64,000 nucleotides of DNA from an uncultured Leifsonia sp. (GTDB lineage Bacteria; Actinomycetota; Actinomycetes; Actinomycetales; Microbacteriaceae): the NCBI RefSeq assembly GCF_945957465.1, contig NZ_CAMFLC010000010.1, positions 1 to 64,000 on the forward strand, read 5' to 3'. The notes under the pieces are model-generated. The model saw nothing but the letters and a program-made list of their open reading frames with translations. It was not told the DNA's origin and ran no database searches. Positions 23,665-63,311 of the stretch are shown piece after piece (the first letter of the stretch is position 1; each line of letters begins with the position of its first letter). A program made the translations under genes and the position numbers.

Positions 23665-23710
23665 CAGACTGCCGACTGCTCTCAGACTGCCGACTGCTCT
23701 CAGACTGCCG
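23665..23710. repeat. 18-base tandem repeat, about 2.6 copies
   Basis: The unit cagactgccgactgctct repeats perfectly at 23665-23682 and 23683-23700, with ten bases of a third copy to 23710. It lies immediately after the kinase gene and runs straight into the large palindrome that follows. Non-coding. Confidence 0.93.
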
Positions 23711-23766
23711 AAGGGCACGTCGTGTTCGCTTCTCGCGCGGAAAAGCGACAACGACGTGCCCTTCGG
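23708..23766. terminator. Large palindrome between convergent genes, possible bidirectional terminator
   Basis: A perfect 16-base inverted repeat (CCGAAGGGCACGTCGT at 23708-23723 and its complement at 23751-23766) encloses 27 bases that hold a second, smaller stem (TCGCTT / AAGCGA). It lies between the convergent kinase and DAHP synthase genes, so termination in both directions is plausible, but no T-tract follows on either strand. It may also be a dispersed palindromic element. Confidence 0.6.
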
Positions 23767-26960: not shown

Positions 26961-27124
26961 GGGCGAGCCCCTTCCGGGTAGGCGCTTCTCAGGCGGTGGG
27001 TGGGAGGCGCGGGACGAGCCGGTCGGAGGAGACTCTCTGCCGCACCATCTAGAGTGTAATCAACCACTGCGAGCCGAAGCCATTCGGCCCGATGACCCGC
27101 CCGCCCGGTATCGAGGGAGCTACC

Positions 27125-28945
27125 GTGAACCAGTTCGAAATCCCCGCACTCGTCCCCGCCGACCCGGAGGCCAACGCGACGGACCTGCTCGTGCAGCGGG
27201 TCGCAGCCTCTCCGGACGCCGCGCTGTTCAGCCGGCCGGACGGCGACGGCTGGAGGGACGTGACGGCCGCTGAGTTCCTCCGCCAGGTCATCGCTCTGGC
27301 GAAGGGCCTCGTCGCCGCGGGCATCCAGCCCGGCGACAAGATCGGCCTGATGTGCAAGACCCGGTACGAATGGACGCTGATCGATTTCGCGACCTGGTTC
27401 GCGGGCGCGGTGCTCGTGCCGATCTACGAGACCTCCTCCCCCGCTCAGGTGCAGTGGAACATGTCCGACTCCGGCGCGATCGCCGTGATCCTCGAAGATG
27501 CGGAGATGTTCTCGCGGTTCGACGAGGTGCACCCCGACCTCCCCCTCATCCAGAACGTGTGGCAGCTCCACCTCGGCGATCTCGAGAAGCTCGCCAACGC
27601 GGGCGCCGACGTGCCCGACGACGAGATCGAACGGCGCAGGAACCTCGCGCGCGGCGAGGACATCGGCACCCTGATCTACACCTCCGGCTCCACGGGACGC
27701 CCCAAGGGCTGCGTGATCACCCACTCCAACTTCGTGGAGCTGTCGCGGAACGCGACCGAGGCCCTCGACGAAGTCCTGCAGGGCGCCTCCACGCTGCTGT
27801 TCATCACGACGGCGCACGTGTTCGCGCGTTTCATCGCCGTGCTGTGCGTCAACGCCGGGGTGAAGGTGGGCCACCAAGCCGACACCAAGCAGCTGCTCCC
27901 CGCGCTCGCGAGCTTCAAGCCGACCTTCCTGCTCGCGGTGCCGCGCGTGTTCGAGAAGGTCTACAACTCCGCCGAGCAGAAGGCCGAGGCCGGCGGCCGC
28001 GGCAAGATCTTCCGAGCAGCGGCCGACGTCGCCGTCGAGCACTCGAAGGCCGTTGAGGCCGGATCGGTGCCCTTCGGCCTCAAGCTCAAGTTCGCCCTGT
28101 ACGACCGGCTGGTGTTCTCCAAGCTGCGCGCGGCCATGGGCGGCCGCGTGAAGTACGCGGTCTCGGGCTCCGCCCCGCTCGGCTCGCACCTCGGCCACTT
28201 CTTCCACAGCCTCGGCATCAAGATCCTGGAGGGCTACGGCCTCACCGAGACCACGGCGCCCGCGACGGTCAACCGACCGGACATGTTCAAGATCGGCACC
28301 GTCGGTCCGGTCCTCCCCGGCGTCGCCGTGCGCCTCGTCGAGGACGGCGAGATCGAGGTCAAGGGCGTCAACGTCTTCAAGGAGTACTGGAAGAATCCCG
28401 AGGCGACGGCCGCCGCCTTCGACGACGGCTGGTTCCGCACCGGCGACCTGGGCAGCCTGGACGACGACGGCTACCTGACGATCACGGGGCGCAAGAAGGA
28501 GATCATCGTCACCGCCGGCGGCAAGAACGTCTCGCCCGCTGTGCTGGAGGACCCGATCCGCGCGAACCCGCTCGTCGGGCAGGTGATCGTGGTCGGTGAC
28601 CAGAAGCCGTTCATCGCCGCGCTGGTCACACTCGACACCGAGATGCTGCCGACCTGGCTCGCGAACAACGGCGAGGACAAGGACATGACCCTCGCGGAGG
28701 CCTCCGTCAACCCGGCGGTGAACGCCGAGATCCAGCGCGCGATCGACGCCGCCAACCAGGGCGTGTCGCGCGCGGAGAGCATCCGCAAGTTCGTCATCCT
28801 GGCCACCGAGCTCACCGAGGCGAGCGGACACCTCACGCCCAAGCTCAGCATCAAGCGCAACGTCATCCTCTCCGACTTCGCCGACGTCATCGACGGCGTC
28901 TACAGCGGCAACCCCAGCACCCAGGGCATCTCCCTCGCCCACTAA
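27125..28945 (+). CDS. Long-chain fatty-acid--CoA ligase (AMP-binding)
   Basis: Activates fatty acids to acyl-CoA. The 606-residue protein has the AMP-binding P-loop LIYTSGSTGRPKGCVITHSN, ILEGYGLTETTAPATVN, DDGWFRTGDLGSLDDDGYL and GRKKEIIVTAGGKNVSP, as in the FadD15-like family. GTG 27125 is preceded by GAGGGAG and is the better start; an upstream ATG at 27092 lacks one. The TAA stop ends three bases before the left 58-base inverted repeat of the DUF559 cassette. Confidence 0.92.
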   Translation: MNQFEIPALVPADPEANATDLLVQRVAASPDAALFSRPDGDGWRDVTAAEFLRQVIALAKGLVAAGIQPGDKIGLMCKTRYEWTLIDFATWFAGAVLVPIYETSSPAQVQWNMSDSGAIAVILEDAEMFSRFDEVHPDLPLIQNVWQLHLGDLEKLANAGADVPDDEIERRRNLARGEDIGTLIYTSGSTGRPKGCVITHSNFVELSRNATEALDEVLQGASTLLFITTAHVFARFIAVLCVNAGVKVGHQADTKQLLPALASFKPTFLLAVPRVFEKVYNSAEQKAEAGGRGKIFRAAADVAVEHSKAVEAGSVPFGLKLKFALYDRLVFSKLRAAMGGRVKYAVSGSAPLGSHLGHFFHSLGIKILEGYGLTETTAPATVNRPDMFKIGTVGPVLPGVAVRLVEDGEIEVKGVNVFKEYWKNPEATAAAFDDGWFRTGDLGSLDDDGYLTITGRKKEIIVTAGGKNVSPAVLEDPIRANPLVGQVIVVGDQKPFIAALVTLDTEMLPTWLANNGEDKDMTLAEASVNPAVNAEIQRAIDAANQGVSRAESIRKFVILATELTEASGHLTPKLSIKRNVILSDFADVIDGVYSGNPSTQGISLAH

Positions 28946-29790
28946 CCCCGACATTCGTCACGAATGTCGACTTTCGTGCCACGAATGTCGACATTCGTGA
29001 CGAATCTTCGAAGGCGCTCGTAGAAGGCCGCGCGATCCTGGAAGAGGTCGCGAGCGGTGACCCGTACGACGTGCCATCCCTCGGCTTCCAGGAGGTCTCG
29101 ACGCTCGATGTCGGTGTGCCACTGACGTTGGTCGACACGGTGCCCGTCGCCCTCGTACTCGAACGCCAGGCGCCGGTGCGGGATGCTCAGGTCCGGGTGC
29201 AGCACCAGCCTCCCCTGTCGCACCGTCACCGGATGATTGACGTCGAGACCGGTGAAGCCGTACTCCTCCAACAGCAACCGGAGCAGGGACTCGGGACGCG
29301 AATCAGCGCCCTGACGTATCCGCGGAAGTGCCCACACCCGCTTACGGGATCCCTTCGTGCGGTGCAACGCGCCGGCCGCGCCCATGAGGTCCTGGAGGCC
29401 CGCCACGGCCTCTCGCCTGCGAGAGCCGACGAGGTGATCACCCGCAGCGACCAGGTCTTCACGGTCGAGAACCCCCGACAACTGACACCACACGTTCGCC
29501 GGCGAACAGACGGGTAGGCCATCGATGACTCGACCGTCGATGCTCCCGAGGCTGTGCCCGCGCACGCCGCGACCGCGGGGCGGTGTGCGCGGGAATTCTA
29601 CGGAGACGTGCAAGGGTCCTTCCGCCAGCCGCGCGGGGAGCGGTATGCCGAGAAGCGCGGCACCGGTCTGGTGGCTGAAGTACGCGCCATCGGACATGAG
29701 CGGAAGGTAGGCCAAGCACAAGTCCCGCAAACCTTGCGGCACAGTCGGCAGGTGCACGGAGTGAAACGGACTGTGAGATGGAATTCGCAT
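28942..29790 (-). CDS. DUF559 (PDDEXK-like) protein with an AbiEi-like N-terminal region, inside an inverted-repeat cassette
   Basis: 282 residues. The C-terminal part (about 160-260) is a DUF559/Vsr-like nuclease fold with a plausible catalytic set Glu167, Asp200 (LHPDLSIP), Glu211 and Glu213 (FEYEGDGH), then ERRDLLEAEGWHVVRVTARDLF. The N-terminal part (SDGAYFSHQTGAALLGIPLP, LPVCSPANVW) resembles the AbiEi-antitoxin-like domain common in Microbacteriaceae DUF559 proteins. Activity is unproven. Residues 263-280 are encoded by the left inverted repeat and the stop codon (28944-28942) lies outside it, overlapping the ligase stop. The gene looks less GC-rich than its neighbours, suggesting transfer. 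ATG 29790 has GAGGGG immediately before it; ATG 29694 (MSDGAYF) is an alternative start. Confidence 0.82.
   Translation of the reverse strand: MRIPSHSPFHSVHLPTVPQGLRDLCLAYLPLMSDGAYFSHQTGAALLGIPLPARLAEGPLHVSVEFPRTPPRGRGVRGHSLGSIDGRVIDGLPVCSPANVWCQLSGVLDREDLVAAGDHLVGSRRREAVAGLQDLMGAAGALHRTKGSRKRVWALPRIRQGADSRPESLLRLLLEEYGFTGLDVNHPVTVRQGRLVLHPDLSIPHRRLAFEYEGDGHRVDQRQWHTDIERRDLLEAEGWHVVRVTARDLFQDRAAFYERLRRFVTNVDIRGTKVDIRDECRG
28949..29006 (+). repeat. Left 58-base inverted repeat of the DUF559 cassette
   Basis: Perfect inverted copy of 29881-29938. It is built from about 20-base modules: a 10+1+10 palindrome CGACATTCGT-C-ACGAATGTCG (28949-28969), a variant with CGACTTTCGT and ACGAATGTCG, and a third partial module ending CGTGACGAATC. 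It starts 3 bases after the ligase TAA. Counting the flanks, 64 of 65 bases match, including the CTAACC around both stop codons. Confidence 0.95.
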
Positions 29791-29880
29791 CCCCTCATCG
29801 TGGCGAGGTGCACACTCGCAGCGTCGCGTGCCGCCGCATCTGTGGACAACGCGCCCCAGCCCCGCACTGTGCGGACGCGC

Positions 29881-29938
29881 GATTCGTCACGAATGTCGAC
29901 ATTCGTGGCACGAAAGTCGACATTCGTGACGAATGTCG
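29881..29938 (-). repeat. Right 58-base inverted repeat of the DUF559 cassette
   Basis: Perfect reverse complement of 28949-29006. It begins 3 bases after the epimerase stop codon (29944-29942) when read on the minus strand, so each flanking gene is followed by the same sequence in the same orientation. It lies about 90 bases upstream of the DUF559 start codon and may also affect that gene's transcription. Confidence 0.95.
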
Positions 29939-29941
29939 CGG

Positions 29942-30790
29942 TTAGAGTTCGTCGCGCCAGGAGTGGGTGGGGGCGTAGCCCAGGATGCGGCGGGCCTTGT
30001 CGATCGAGAGGAGGGTGTCGTTGTTGTCGAGGTCGTCGCGCTTCAGCGGGACGCCGGGGAAGACCTCGGCGATCAACTCGGCGTTGGGACGACTCATCAC
30101 GGTGTCGGCCGCGGCGATGATGAACCGGTCGAAGCCGGTGGTGTCCCACTCCAGTGCCCGCATGATCGCCTGGGCGCCGTCGCGGGCGTCGATGTAGCCC
30201 CACAGGTTCCACTTGCGCGCGCGTGCATCCGCGTCGTACGACGGGAAGGCCGCATAGTCCGACGGCTCCATCACGTTCGAGAACCGCAGCGCGACGATCT
30301 TCAGCGCCGGGTCCCAGCGCACCAGTTCGATCGCCATCTGCTCCTCGAGGTGCTTGACCAGGGAGTACGTCGACTCCGGACGCGCCGGGTAGTCCTCGTC
30401 GACCGGGATGTACGGCGGCGGCACGTCGAACGGGAGGCCGAGCACGGTCTCGCTCGACGCGTACACGACGTTGCGGATGCCGGCGCGACGCGCGGCCTGG
30501 AACACGTTGTAGGTGACCCGGATGTTGTTGTGGAACGTCGCGACGTCACTCAGGATGCCGGGCGCCGGGATCGCCGCCAGGTGCACGATCGCGTCGAAGC
30601 CGTCGTGGAGGTCGTTGACGCCGAGGATGGCGTCCAGCGTCTGGCCGAAATCGGTGAGGTCGACCCGGACGAAGCCGGCGCCGCGCTCTCCCGTCGCATC
30701 CAGATTGACGACGGTGTGGCCCGCCGCACGTAGTTCACGCACGACGGTGCGTCCGAGCTTTCCCGATCCTCCGGTGACTGCGATGTCCAT
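29942..30790 (-). CDS. NAD-dependent epimerase/dehydratase family protein
   Basis: Extended short-chain dehydrogenase fold, 282 residues. The N-terminus MDIAVTGGSGKLGRTVVREL is the GxxGxxG cofactor site; IVHLAAIPAPG, the active-site region YASSETVLG and YSLVKHLEEQ (YxxxK) follow, then ALRFSNVMEP. It probably acts on a nucleotide-sugar or similar substrate, which cannot be named. It ends three bases before the right inverted repeat of the DUF559 cassette and begins 22 bases after the deformylase stop codon. Confidence 0.85.
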   Translation of the reverse strand: MDIAVTGGSGKLGRTVVRELRAAGHTVVNLDATGERGAGFVRVDLTDFGQTLDAILGVNDLHDGFDAIVHLAAIPAPGILSDVATFHNNIRVTYNVFQAARRAGIRNVVYASSETVLGLPFDVPPPYIPVDEDYPARPESTYSLVKHLEEQMAIELVRWDPALKIVALRFSNVMEPSDYAAFPSYDADARARKWNLWGYIDARDGAQAIMRALEWDTTGFDRFIIAAADTVMSRPNAELIAEVFPGVPLKRDDLDNNDTLLSIDKARRILGYAPTHSWRDEL

Positions 30791-36220: not shown

Positions 36221-37030
36221 GTGCACGTACTCAGCGTTAGTTCCCTCAAGGGCGGTGTCGGAAAGACCACGGTGACGCTCGGTCTGGCCTCGGCGGCGTT
36301 CGCGAAGGGGCTCCGGACGCTCGTCGTCGACCTCGATCCACAGTCCGATGTCTCGACCGGCATGGACATCCAGGTCGCCGGCCACCTCAATGTCGCCGAC
36401 GTGCTCGCCTCCCCCAAAGAGAAGATCGTCCGCGCGGCGATCGCGCCTTCGGGGTGGACCAAGGGCCGCGCCGGCAAGGTCGACGTCATGATCGGGAGCC
36501 CGTCCGCCATCAACTTCGACGGTCCGCACCCGAGCATCCGCGACATCTGGAAGCTCGAGGAGGCCCTGGCCAACGTCGAGCACGACTACGAGCTGGTCCT
36601 GATCGACTGCGCCCCGTCGCTCAACGCGCTCACCCGCACGGCCTGGGCGGCGAGCGACCGCGTCGCCGTGGTGACCGAGCCCGGGCTCTTCTCGGTGGCT
36701 GCGGCCGACCGCGCACTGCGTGCGATCGAGGAGATCCGCCGCGGACTGTCACCGCGCCTCCAGCCGCTCGGCATCATCGTGAACCGGGCGCGCGTGCAGT
36801 CGCTCGAGCACCAGTTCCGCATCAAGGAGCTGCGCGACATGTTCGGCCCGCTCGTGCTCGCACCGCAGCTGCCGGAGCGCACATCGCTGCAGCAGGCGCA
36901 GGGCGCCGCGAAGCCGCTGCACGTCTGGCCGGGTGAAAGTGCGCAGGAGATGGCGCACAACTTCGACCTCCTGCTCGAGCGGGTCCTCCGCACCGCCAAG
37001 ATCGGCGAGTACGCGGTCGCCGGCTCCTGA
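36221..37030 (+). CDS. ParA-family ATPase
   Basis: Walker-type ATPase starting [27 protein letters not shown] (KGGVGKTT), with TLVVDLDPQSDVSTGMDI, LVLIDCAPSLNALTRTAWAAS and VVTEPGLFSV. 269 residues from GTG 36221; GTG 36212 with GAAGG three bases upstream is an alternative. No parB lies nearby, so this orphan ParA-like protein probably positions something other than the chromosome origin, or acts with the MerR/GarA cluster next door. It is divergent from pyc. Confidence 0.85.
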   Translation: MHVLSVSSLKGGVGKTTVTLGLASAAFAKGLRTLVVDLDPQSDVSTGMDIQVAGHLNVADVLASPKEKIVRAAIAPSGWTKGRAGKVDVMIGSPSAINFDGPHPSIRDIWKLEEALANVEHDYELVLIDCAPSLNALTRTAWAASDRVAVVTEPGLFSVAAADRALRAIEEIRRGLSPRLQPLGIIVNRARVQSLEHQFRIKELRDMFGPLVLAPQLPERTSLQQAQGAAKPLHVWPGESAQEMAHNFDLLLERVLRTAKIGEYAVAGS

Positions 37031-37063
37031 GCACGATCGCGACGACGCTCGAATTCTGCGAGA

Positions 37064-37102
37064 AACCGTCGAGTACACGGAGATTCCGCGGACTCGACGG
37101 TT
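37064..37102 (+). terminator. Stem-loop after the parA-like gene
   Basis: An 11-base perfect inverted repeat AACCGTCGAGT (37064-37074) and ACTCGACGGTT (37092-37102) encloses 17 bases with an inner CGGA/TCCG pair. It lies 34 bases after the parA stop and between convergent genes. No T-tract follows; termination is likely but not proven. Confidence 0.55.
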
Positions 37103-37158
37103 GAGGTCTATGCCGATTGAGTTCTGTGCCGATTGAGGTCTGAGCCGGTTGAGAACGG
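37095..37158. repeat. Four degenerate 16-base tandem repeats
   Basis: Units at 37095-37110, 37111-37126, 37127-37142 and 37143-37158 all follow the pattern NGCCGATTGAGGTCTG with a few changes. They overlap the right arm of the preceding stem-loop and end six bases before the MerR stop codon. Non-coding. Confidence 0.85.
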
Positions 37159-63240: not shown

Positions 63241-63311
63241 GGGCGGCCGAGGGGCGCCGAAACGCCCCTAAAACCGCGGTTTGAGGGCGTTTGCACGCCC
63301 CTCGGCCGCCC
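63241..63311. repeat. Nested palindrome between convergent genes
   Basis: A perfect 16-base inverted repeat (GGGCGGCCGAGGGGCG at 63241-63256 and its complement at 63296-63311) encloses AACGCCC/GGGCGTT arms and, at the centre, the 12-base palindrome AAACCGCGGTTT. Three 11-base direct copies of the type CGAGGGGCGGC lead into it from about 63226. It starts 13 bases after the MFS stop and ends 2 bases before the stop codon of the next, convergent gene. It may be a bidirectional terminator or a dispersed palindromic element; no T-tract. Confidence 0.75.

Follow-up and report, generated by a model that had tools for sequence, protein, structure and literature searches.

The closest systems described to date are the REP/RAYT units called REPtrons. 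As depicted in the available text of the relevant papers, they place an enzyme gene between its own palindromes, have dispersed extragenic copies of these palindromes as well as arrays of elements, and display co-evolution of enzyme and palindrome (PMC8266576, PMC3733652, PMC2817692). The Leifsonia DNA analysed here is alike in all of these respects. The enzymes are unrelated: that of REPtrons is an HUH Y1 protein, whereas that of Leifsonia would belong to the Vsr/PD-(D/E)XK class. The Leifsonia system also differs in that several orthogonal enzyme-palindrome pairs coexist in a genome, and in that the palindrome type of the gene studied here has no end tag. The unpaired GTAG/CGTC tag of REPtrons is absent there; CGT[C/G] occurs within the paired part, and 12 of 41 copies have the G in box 1.

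Other described systems share one half of the arrangement. CGTC-tagged REPs are likewise dispersed palindromes that RAYTs do not serve. According to the paper that describes them, they are apparently devoid of a dedicated transposase (PMC3733652), whereas the Leifsonia palindromes are associated with a dedicated gene. The word Actinobacteria is absent from the main text of that paper. As for the enzyme, the same type of nuclease domain, with a Vsr fold, is found in MTES_1575 and DUF559 Vsr-like REases (PMC3710099, PMC12907096), the fold being assigned to MTES_1575 in the first of these papers. There the domain occurs in fusions with HEPN and wHTH domains, or else the enzyme is tied to a cytosine methyltransferase; the main text of the second paper nowhere contains the string 'palindrom'. 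Finally, MITEs and insertion sequences are also short dispersed elements, present or absent between close species. They probably differ from the present case, where the enzyme gene of the locus stays put and a target duplication was not seen at the one site read. The listed titles and abstracts of the DUF559, MTES_1575 and related literature, a scope outside which lie preprints and most subscription journals, contained no prior description of a nuclease-palindrome partnership.

A predicted nuclease gene settled at a ligase-epimerase junction

The window is a stretch of 64,000 nucleotides from an uncultured Leifsonia sp.; its features are collected in Table 1. The names given to the two genes that face each other there are putative and follow, in part, a preliminary description of this DNA.

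Table 1. Coordinates of the nuclease gene, its palindromes and neighbouring features in the window
Feature	Position	Strand	Remarks
AMP-dependent acyl-CoA-type ligase	27092..28945	+	convergent neighbour, conserved locus anchor
Predicted MTES_1575/DUF559-type nuclease gene (Vsr fold, PD-(D/E)XK class, 282 aa)	28942..29790	-	Pfam matches; residues E167, D200, E211, H217, D227
Palindromic element on the 3' side of the nuclease gene	28953..29005	-	53-bp core, three dyad boxes, spacers both GTCGAC; doubles as coding sequence of the C-terminal tail
Palindromic element on the 5' side of the nuclease gene	29882..29934	+	inverted copy, 58/58 identical to the 3' one over 29881-29938
NAD-dependent epimerase	29942..30790	-	neighbour on the other side, conserved locus anchor
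Palindrome like the flanks of the G021 nuclease L203 (GGGCACGT...ACGTGCCC outer arms)	23708..23766	.	
Palindrome of the type at the flanks of paralog C29 (AAACGCCCCTAAAAC)	63241..63311	.	between the stops of two convergent ORFs

The preliminary description had seen two identical 58-base repeats in inverse orientation, placed three bases from the stop codon of each neighbour. This stands: the repeats (28949-29006 and 29881-29938) match at 58 of 58 positions within 65-nt arms (28942-29006 and 29881-29945) that are 98% complementary and 874 nt apart, and the stop codons of the ligase (TAA, 28943-28945) and of the epimerase (29942-29944, minus strand) each lie three bases beyond the repeats. That the repeats enclose one gene holds in so far as a single ORF is found between them, and has to be amended in that its last 19 codons belong to the left repeat, the nuclease stop overlapping that of the ligase. 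Three dyad boxes, ATTCGTSACGAAT-N6-ATTCGTGSCACGAAT-N6-ATTCGTSACGAAT, make each 53-bp repeat almost palindromic on its own, so that the orientation of the pair as 'inverted' depends on the central base and the spacers.

The protein matches Pfam MTES_1575 (PF18741; E=2e-8, 34.5 bits) and DUF559 (PF04480; E=0.011, 16 bits), in both cases below the cut-off (38.2 and 20.6, respectively). Residues E167, D200, E211, H217 and D227 are invariant across 45 aligned proteins, and we take them to be the conserved acidic and histidine residues of the catalytic type. Among the sequences of solved structures four matched at E<=1 (best E=0.42), with no nuclease among their names. A known defence system was considered and rejected: the best PADLOC match was insignificant (E=0.048) and NCBIfam gave none. 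The family is large: of 297 genomes sampled from the order, 203 match its A2 profile at E<=1e-25.

An ortholog (54-75% identity) sits at this same ligase-epimerase junction in 24 of 28 Leifsonia genomes. The predicted nuclease gene is thus an old resident of the site; turnover is seen for the repeats and not for the gene of this locus. On the 24 junctions read, the mobile or self-mobilising cassette of the preliminary description is rejected for this locus.

Matched palindromes around the nuclease family

Flanks of the nuclease genes were compared with those of control genes from the same loci. Inverted flank repeats matching with a score of at least 40 were found for 80 of 102 Leifsonia nuclease genes and for 0 of 131 controls, so that the REPtron trait of a dedicated enzyme gene flanked by its own palindromes is found here too. 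Hairpins with a stem score of at least 12 occurred on both sides of 45 of the 102 genes (0 of 131 controls) and upstream of 63 (4 of 131). The same holds outside the genus. In other Microbacteriaceae, 38 of 57 nuclease genes had matched flanks, against 0 of 101 controls, once 23 of the 80 loci, each with a Leifsonia title and placed on its contig as in the genus set, had been dropped (two Leifsonia-titled records, Root4 and Leaf264, were retained); in ten further families of the order, the figures were 30 of 40, hand-picked among the best listed places outside Microbacteriaceae, against 0 of 79. The comparison shows that most tested members of this predicted nuclease family lie between matched palindromes. 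Repeat and gene belong together, as the preliminary description supposed, and they do so across the order, more widely than it could see.

The left and right flanks of a gene also match each other better than those of other genes. At the ligase locus (n=24) the summed score was 1048, with a maximum of 876 in 5000 shuffles; in a second set (n=78) it was 4044, with a maximum of 2256 in as many shuffles. The pairing of predicted nuclease gene and repeat is not due to chance, and the flank comparisons against control genes lead us to reject an ordinary terminator or REP that merely happens to lie beside the gene.

There are exceptions. A matched inverted pair was lacking for 22 of 102 genes in Leifsonia, 19 of 57 in other Microbacteriaceae and 10 of 40 in the ten families, among them all three genes of one family (f7). 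At least four of the 22 (L144, L198, L227, L248) have strong direct matches in place of inverted ones, while some passing genes do so partly via C-rich, coding or tandem sequence (L413, L415). An inner motif, ACACGCCG, is common to the flanks of 33 of 102 nuclease genes and 14 of 131 controls.

Paralogs of one genome never shared a palindrome (0 of 98 pairs), against 490 of 3062 pairs between genomes, a similarity inflated because the 160-bp flanks used can take in neighbouring coding sequence of shared loci. Similarity of palindromes went with that of nucleases (Mantel rho 0.48; maximum 0.06 in 999 permutations), in a comparison restricted to the 80 genes scoring at least 40. The comparison shows that palindromes differ among paralogs of one genome and that their similarity follows that of the predicted nucleases.

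Dispersed copies, their form and their turnover

The repeat of the window is a dispersed REP-like element. We read 41 copies in the genome of the window, and allowing at most two mismatches retrieved 45, with 0 for the reversed pattern. The pair does not stand alone, the next best copies being 97% (over 58 bases) and 98% (over 54 bases) identical to the query; the repeat lies near unrelated genes at dozens of sites, the outcome that the preliminary description had itself named as refuting its cassette reading. The elements often stand directly behind stop codons. Of 36 that could be classified, 20 were between convergent genes and 1 between divergent ones, with a background of 40 and 41, respectively, of 180 gene pairs.

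The box motif ATTYGYSMCRAAT has forward counts of 14-460 in 23 Leifsonia genomes and 0-2 in the other 5, while its reversed pattern is at 0, once at 1. All 23 carry the gene; the 5 with hardly any matches are the one remaining carrier of the 24, which has a different palindrome, and the 4 genomes without the gene. This association is drawn from related genomes and thus does not count independent events. The type at the flanks of paralog C29 was found in 6 of 28 Leifsonia genomes; genome G017 has 4 matches and no detected gene, and genome G021 has 32, with only a relative, L203, in whose palindromes the outer arm is the same. A Microbacterium type, followed at 12 loci chosen by hand among 80, is borne by the gene in three genomes, where it had 29, 34 and 8 matches, and had 0-2 in nine others. 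For the three types counted, comparison shows that dispersed copies go, in essence, with the presence of a predicted nuclease gene bearing the type in question, or of a close relative. The REPtron feature of dispersed extragenic copies is found, save for the C7 and C25 types of the window genome, for which the 381 kb sampled yielded no clear copies of this kind.

Single copies of the window element fold strongly as DNA (z -8.8 and -9.0). Pairing between spacers was nonetheless below that expected from shuffling (3.02 vs 3.41), and one long hairpin is unsupported as the selected feature of this type. The boxes hardly vary, and the two 6-bp spacers show no co-variation that would preserve the long hairpin, for which reason recognition would probably be of double-stranded dyads; compared with REPtrons, this argues against recognition as a single long hairpin. 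Rfam gave 19 matches at E<=1 for positions 28800-30100, none above its gathering score, those on the elements being miRNA and sRNA models.

Elements come and go. Comparing two close species (G020 and G022) shows presence/absence and change of type, among 11 palindromes per genome of which one in each had neither flank lifted over and one in each only one flank. Of the two palindromes flagged 'absent', that at G020 131829 does exist in G022, its flag being an artefact of the lift-over. No target-site duplication appeared at the single clean presence/absence site read. Common descent accounts for a good part of the dispersed sites: among the 19 compared in one genome (G011), this holds for at least 6.

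A nuclease that may copy its own palindrome

We propose that the window probably contains a unit of a system akin to REPtrons and based on a Vsr-fold nuclease, where a chromosomal gene has a copy of its own palindrome on either side and further copies are scattered genome-wide. That the nuclease binds this palindrome is likely. We lean, with less assurance, towards a further step, in which the enzyme would nick or cut at the palindromes and repair would then copy elements from site to site and into the ends of genes. Such copying would account for the tandem arrays, the type swap and the complete match (58/58) of the flanking pair. We may also speculate that the flanking pair couples expression of the gene to its own recognition site.

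The palindromes might instead be operators or RNA hairpins which regulate the nuclease gene and, incidentally, the 3' ends of other genes; the nuclease would recognize them without spreading them, and recombination or another enzyme would make the copies. This agrees with the pairs seen around most tested members, with the many elements behind stop codons, a place from which hairpins can affect a transcript, and with the palindrome types that lack clear dispersal in the sample. We hold it unlikely, as box matches reach 460 and are near zero where the gene is missing, elements vary between close species, and an autoregulator alone does not need dozens of copies at unrelated genes. Still less probable is a host or conflict role (processing of hairpins or cruciforms, Vsr-like repair, self-marking against foreign DNA) for which the spread would have been selected. 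A Vsr-fold family (PMC3710099) with conserved acidic residues, at a locus constant across the genus, would fit such a role; the insignificant PADLOC match does not, nor do the different palindromes that paralogs of one genome have, since general repair would require no such difference.

Two other explanations seem very improbable to us, to the same degree. Perfect inverted ends around one gene do evoke a self-mobilising cassette made of a nuclease and its terminal repeats, yet the ortholog keeps to a single junction in 24 of 28 genomes, with recent mobility of the gene contradicted there, paralogs have unrelated ends, and homologs appeared in no phage record (E<=1e-8) and in one plasmid record (E<=1e-15). 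An unseen transposase might also move the palindromes, the nuclease gene being a passenger. Y1_Tnp (PF01797), which serves classical REPs, was the sole transposase domain looked for. None of the 28 Leifsonia genomes yielded it at E<=0.001 (5 of the 14 used as controls did), which sets aside a classical RAYT as the mover in these genomes. Any other mover would have to account for palindromes that follow the nuclease lineage, and each type would require a separate one.

Returning to cut and repair by the nuclease, we would go, with a confidence just short of even, as far as seeing a second class of REP system that evolved independently and is widespread among actinobacteria, in which each Vsr-fold nuclease would recognize its palindrome in the form of double-stranded dyads and copy it to the ends of genes, with several mutually orthogonal pairs per genome. 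The proposal gives a large nuclease family a partner and a testable role, and the dispersed palindromes an enzyme where the classical REP transposase was not found. Because most genes bear their presumed target on both sides, specificity should be predictable from sequence and testable pair by pair. If this is true, the family would constitute a natural set of sequence-specific nucleases, the target of each being readable from the DNA beside its gene.

Two identical palindromes around one nuclease gene

The window contains, as the preliminary description had it, a pair of 58-base repeats in inverse orientation, 100% identical, which bracket a single ORF of 282 aa and begin, again as stated there, three bases beyond the stops of two convergent genes. 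Against Pfam this ORF matches MTES_1575 (E=2e-8, under the curated cut-off) and, weakly, DUF559. The left repeat also codes for the final 19 residues of the nuclease, VTNVDIRGTKVDIRDECRG, and the stop of this ORF overlaps that of the ligase. The same FVTN or FVPN continuation is found in 16 of 20 C-terminal tails, taken from the 24 junction orthologs. Each repeat forms a 53-bp near-palindrome in which three dyad boxes follow one another at intervals of about 20 bp (ATTCGTSACGAAT-N6-ATTCGTGSCACGAAT-N6-ATTCGTSACGAAT). Across 41 element copies of the window genome (G000) the boxes show little or no variation at most positions, while the spacers vary.

The proposal of a mobile cassette has to be abandoned: the repeat is widely dispersed, and 24 of 28 Leifsonia genomes carry the nuclease ortholog at one ligase-epimerase junction. 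A search of its own genome with the window repeat gave dozens of copies distant from all five full-length nuclease genes. Thirty-six of the 41 copies could be classified as lying between two predicted genes, convergent in 20 cases, co-directional in 15 and divergent in 1, against 40, 99 and 41 for 180 adjacent gene pairs of the same loci; three of the remaining five are at an edge and two within a predicted ORF. The facing stop codon is at most 37 bp away in 34 of 55 distances, convergent sites counting twice and gene prediction being crude. Besides the window pair, one window-type element (G000:C7:9416-9474) has a nuclease-domain match in its vicinity: a more remote one, some 300 bp away (C7:8867-9115), lies within a 1255-aa open frame, perhaps a large MTES_1575-type protein with its element beside it.

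Both neighbours of the junction ortholog are covered in 23 genomes; in G023, where the contig ends, the stretch compared includes just the epimerase. Read by eye, nearly all these orthologs have palindromic sequence on both flanks, of a genome-specific type: ATTCGTSACGAAT, ATTCGTGCCGAAT, ATTTGTGCCAAAT or ATTTGCGCCAAAT, and in G004 a further kind. For the 3' side in G005, the stretch examined contains only part of a palindrome. On the 5' side of the G017 ortholog (locus L162, 2460-2633), the element matches four times at 40-bp intervals beside the nuclease gene.

Matched flanks of nuclease homologs, and paralogs with palindromes of their own

The left flank of each homolog was locally aligned to the reverse complement of the right, a score of at least 40 being a pass. 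The Leifsonia set took in every match at E<=1e-20 from 28 genomes, 103 in number, which makes 102 homologs because one gene is split in two; 131 other genes of the same loci served as controls. Matched inverted flanks were present in 80/102 nuclease genes and 0/131 controls (median score 58 versus 25). At least four of the 22 genes under 40 (L144, L198, L227, L248) have strong direct, not inverted, matches. A separate hairpin count (stem score >=12) was positive on both flanks in 45/102 genes versus 0/131 controls, and upstream in 63/102 versus 4/131. In the rest of the Microbacteriaceae, 38 of 57 homologs passed the flank test (two of the 57 from records titled Leifsonia) versus 0 of 101 controls; in ten further families of the order, 30 of 40 passed versus 0 of 79, nine families being represented and the tenth, f7, having none in three. 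The flanks of L413 and L415 resemble simple repeats rather than palindromes. The association of nuclease gene and palindrome is general. A motif, ACACGCCG, is common to otherwise unlike flanks (33/102 genes, 14/131 controls).

The four other full-length paralogs of the window genome, named after their contigs, all have flanking repeats unlike those of the window. These are clear for C7 and C29; around C46 the direct match outscores the inverted one, and the C25 flank, truncated at the contig end, scores below threshold. The last 60 bases or so of that contig (L143) carry, in or beside the downstream repeat, an apparent sequencing-adapter remnant, CTGTCTCTTATACACATCT, which we take to be a transposase adapter; this end is probably an assembly artefact. 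Among the 80 flank-positive genes the palindrome was shared in 0/98 within-genome pairs versus 490/3062 between-genome pairs. Protein and palindrome similarity were correlated (rho 0.48, against a maximum of 0.06 over 999 permutations, kinship of genomes being ignored), and pairing a gene's own two flanks gave better matches than any of 5000 shuffles between genes, at the ligase locus as well as at other loci.

Dispersed elements and their turnover

The dispersed copies accompany the gene. Forward matches to the box pattern ATTYGYSMCRAAT number 14-460 in 23 of these related Leifsonia genomes; the other five have 0-2 matches. The 23 rich genomes are carriers of the junction ortholog; no homolog was found at the junction in four of the poor ones, and the fifth, G004, has an ortholog with a different palindrome. 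G023, with 460 matches, is by far the richest. C29-type palindromes occur in 6 of 28 genomes: four (G000, G007, G008, G011) have a nuclease bearing such flanks; in G021 a closely related nuclease (L203, with a normalised protein score of 0.76) has palindromes that share the outer arm; no such nuclease turned up in G017. Beyond the genus, a palindrome type from Microbacterium matched 29, 34 and 8 times in the three genomes where the nuclease gene bears it, and 0-2 times in nine further genomes. The C7 and C25 palindromes had no clear additional copies in 381 kb of the window genome.

Palindromes of other types in the window
Feature	Position	Situation or likeness
C29-paralog-type palindrome	63241-63311	between convergent ORF stops 63228 and 63313
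Long palindrome	23708-23766	outer arms like flanks of nuclease L203 (G021)
Palindrome-like stretch, resembling C46-paralog type GTCGAGTACACGG...CCGCGGACTCGAC	36980-37120	shortly after a possible stop

In a 200-kb block of the close genomes G020 and G022, each with 11 palindromes found, the pair around the local nuclease and one more palindrome of such type are common to both. One palindrome of G020 is absent from G022 between seemingly the same convergent genes, with no target duplication visible at that site; a second site has palindromes of differing types. Nine of 19 dispersed G011 elements were covered in a comparison with G000, where an element site matched both flanks in six and one flank in three. 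G000, G008 and G017 have the same 3' element core at the window locus but differ in their 5' elements; the 5' copy of G000 equals its 3' copy, looking as it would after a copy or conversion event. G008 has an array of elements (L266, contig C7, 3994-4850) with many boxes spaced at 40 bp; the corresponding site in G000 (L135) carries one copy.

A possible partnership of nuclease and palindrome

The classical REP transposase domain, Y1_Tnp, was found in none of the 28 Leifsonia genomes. The most economical reading of our analyses is that each nuclease would be the trans-acting partner of its own palindrome, as TnpA_REP is described to be for REPs (PMC8266576; PMC3733652). For the window type, recognition as double-stranded dyads is favoured over one long hairpin, because the boxes are conserved and the spacers pair no better within copies than between them (3.02 versus 3.41). 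The C7 and L335 types, by contrast, are near-perfect long hairpins, and the mode of recognition may therefore differ between nuclease-palindrome pairs. The palindromes themselves, we infer, would spread by cut-and-repair.
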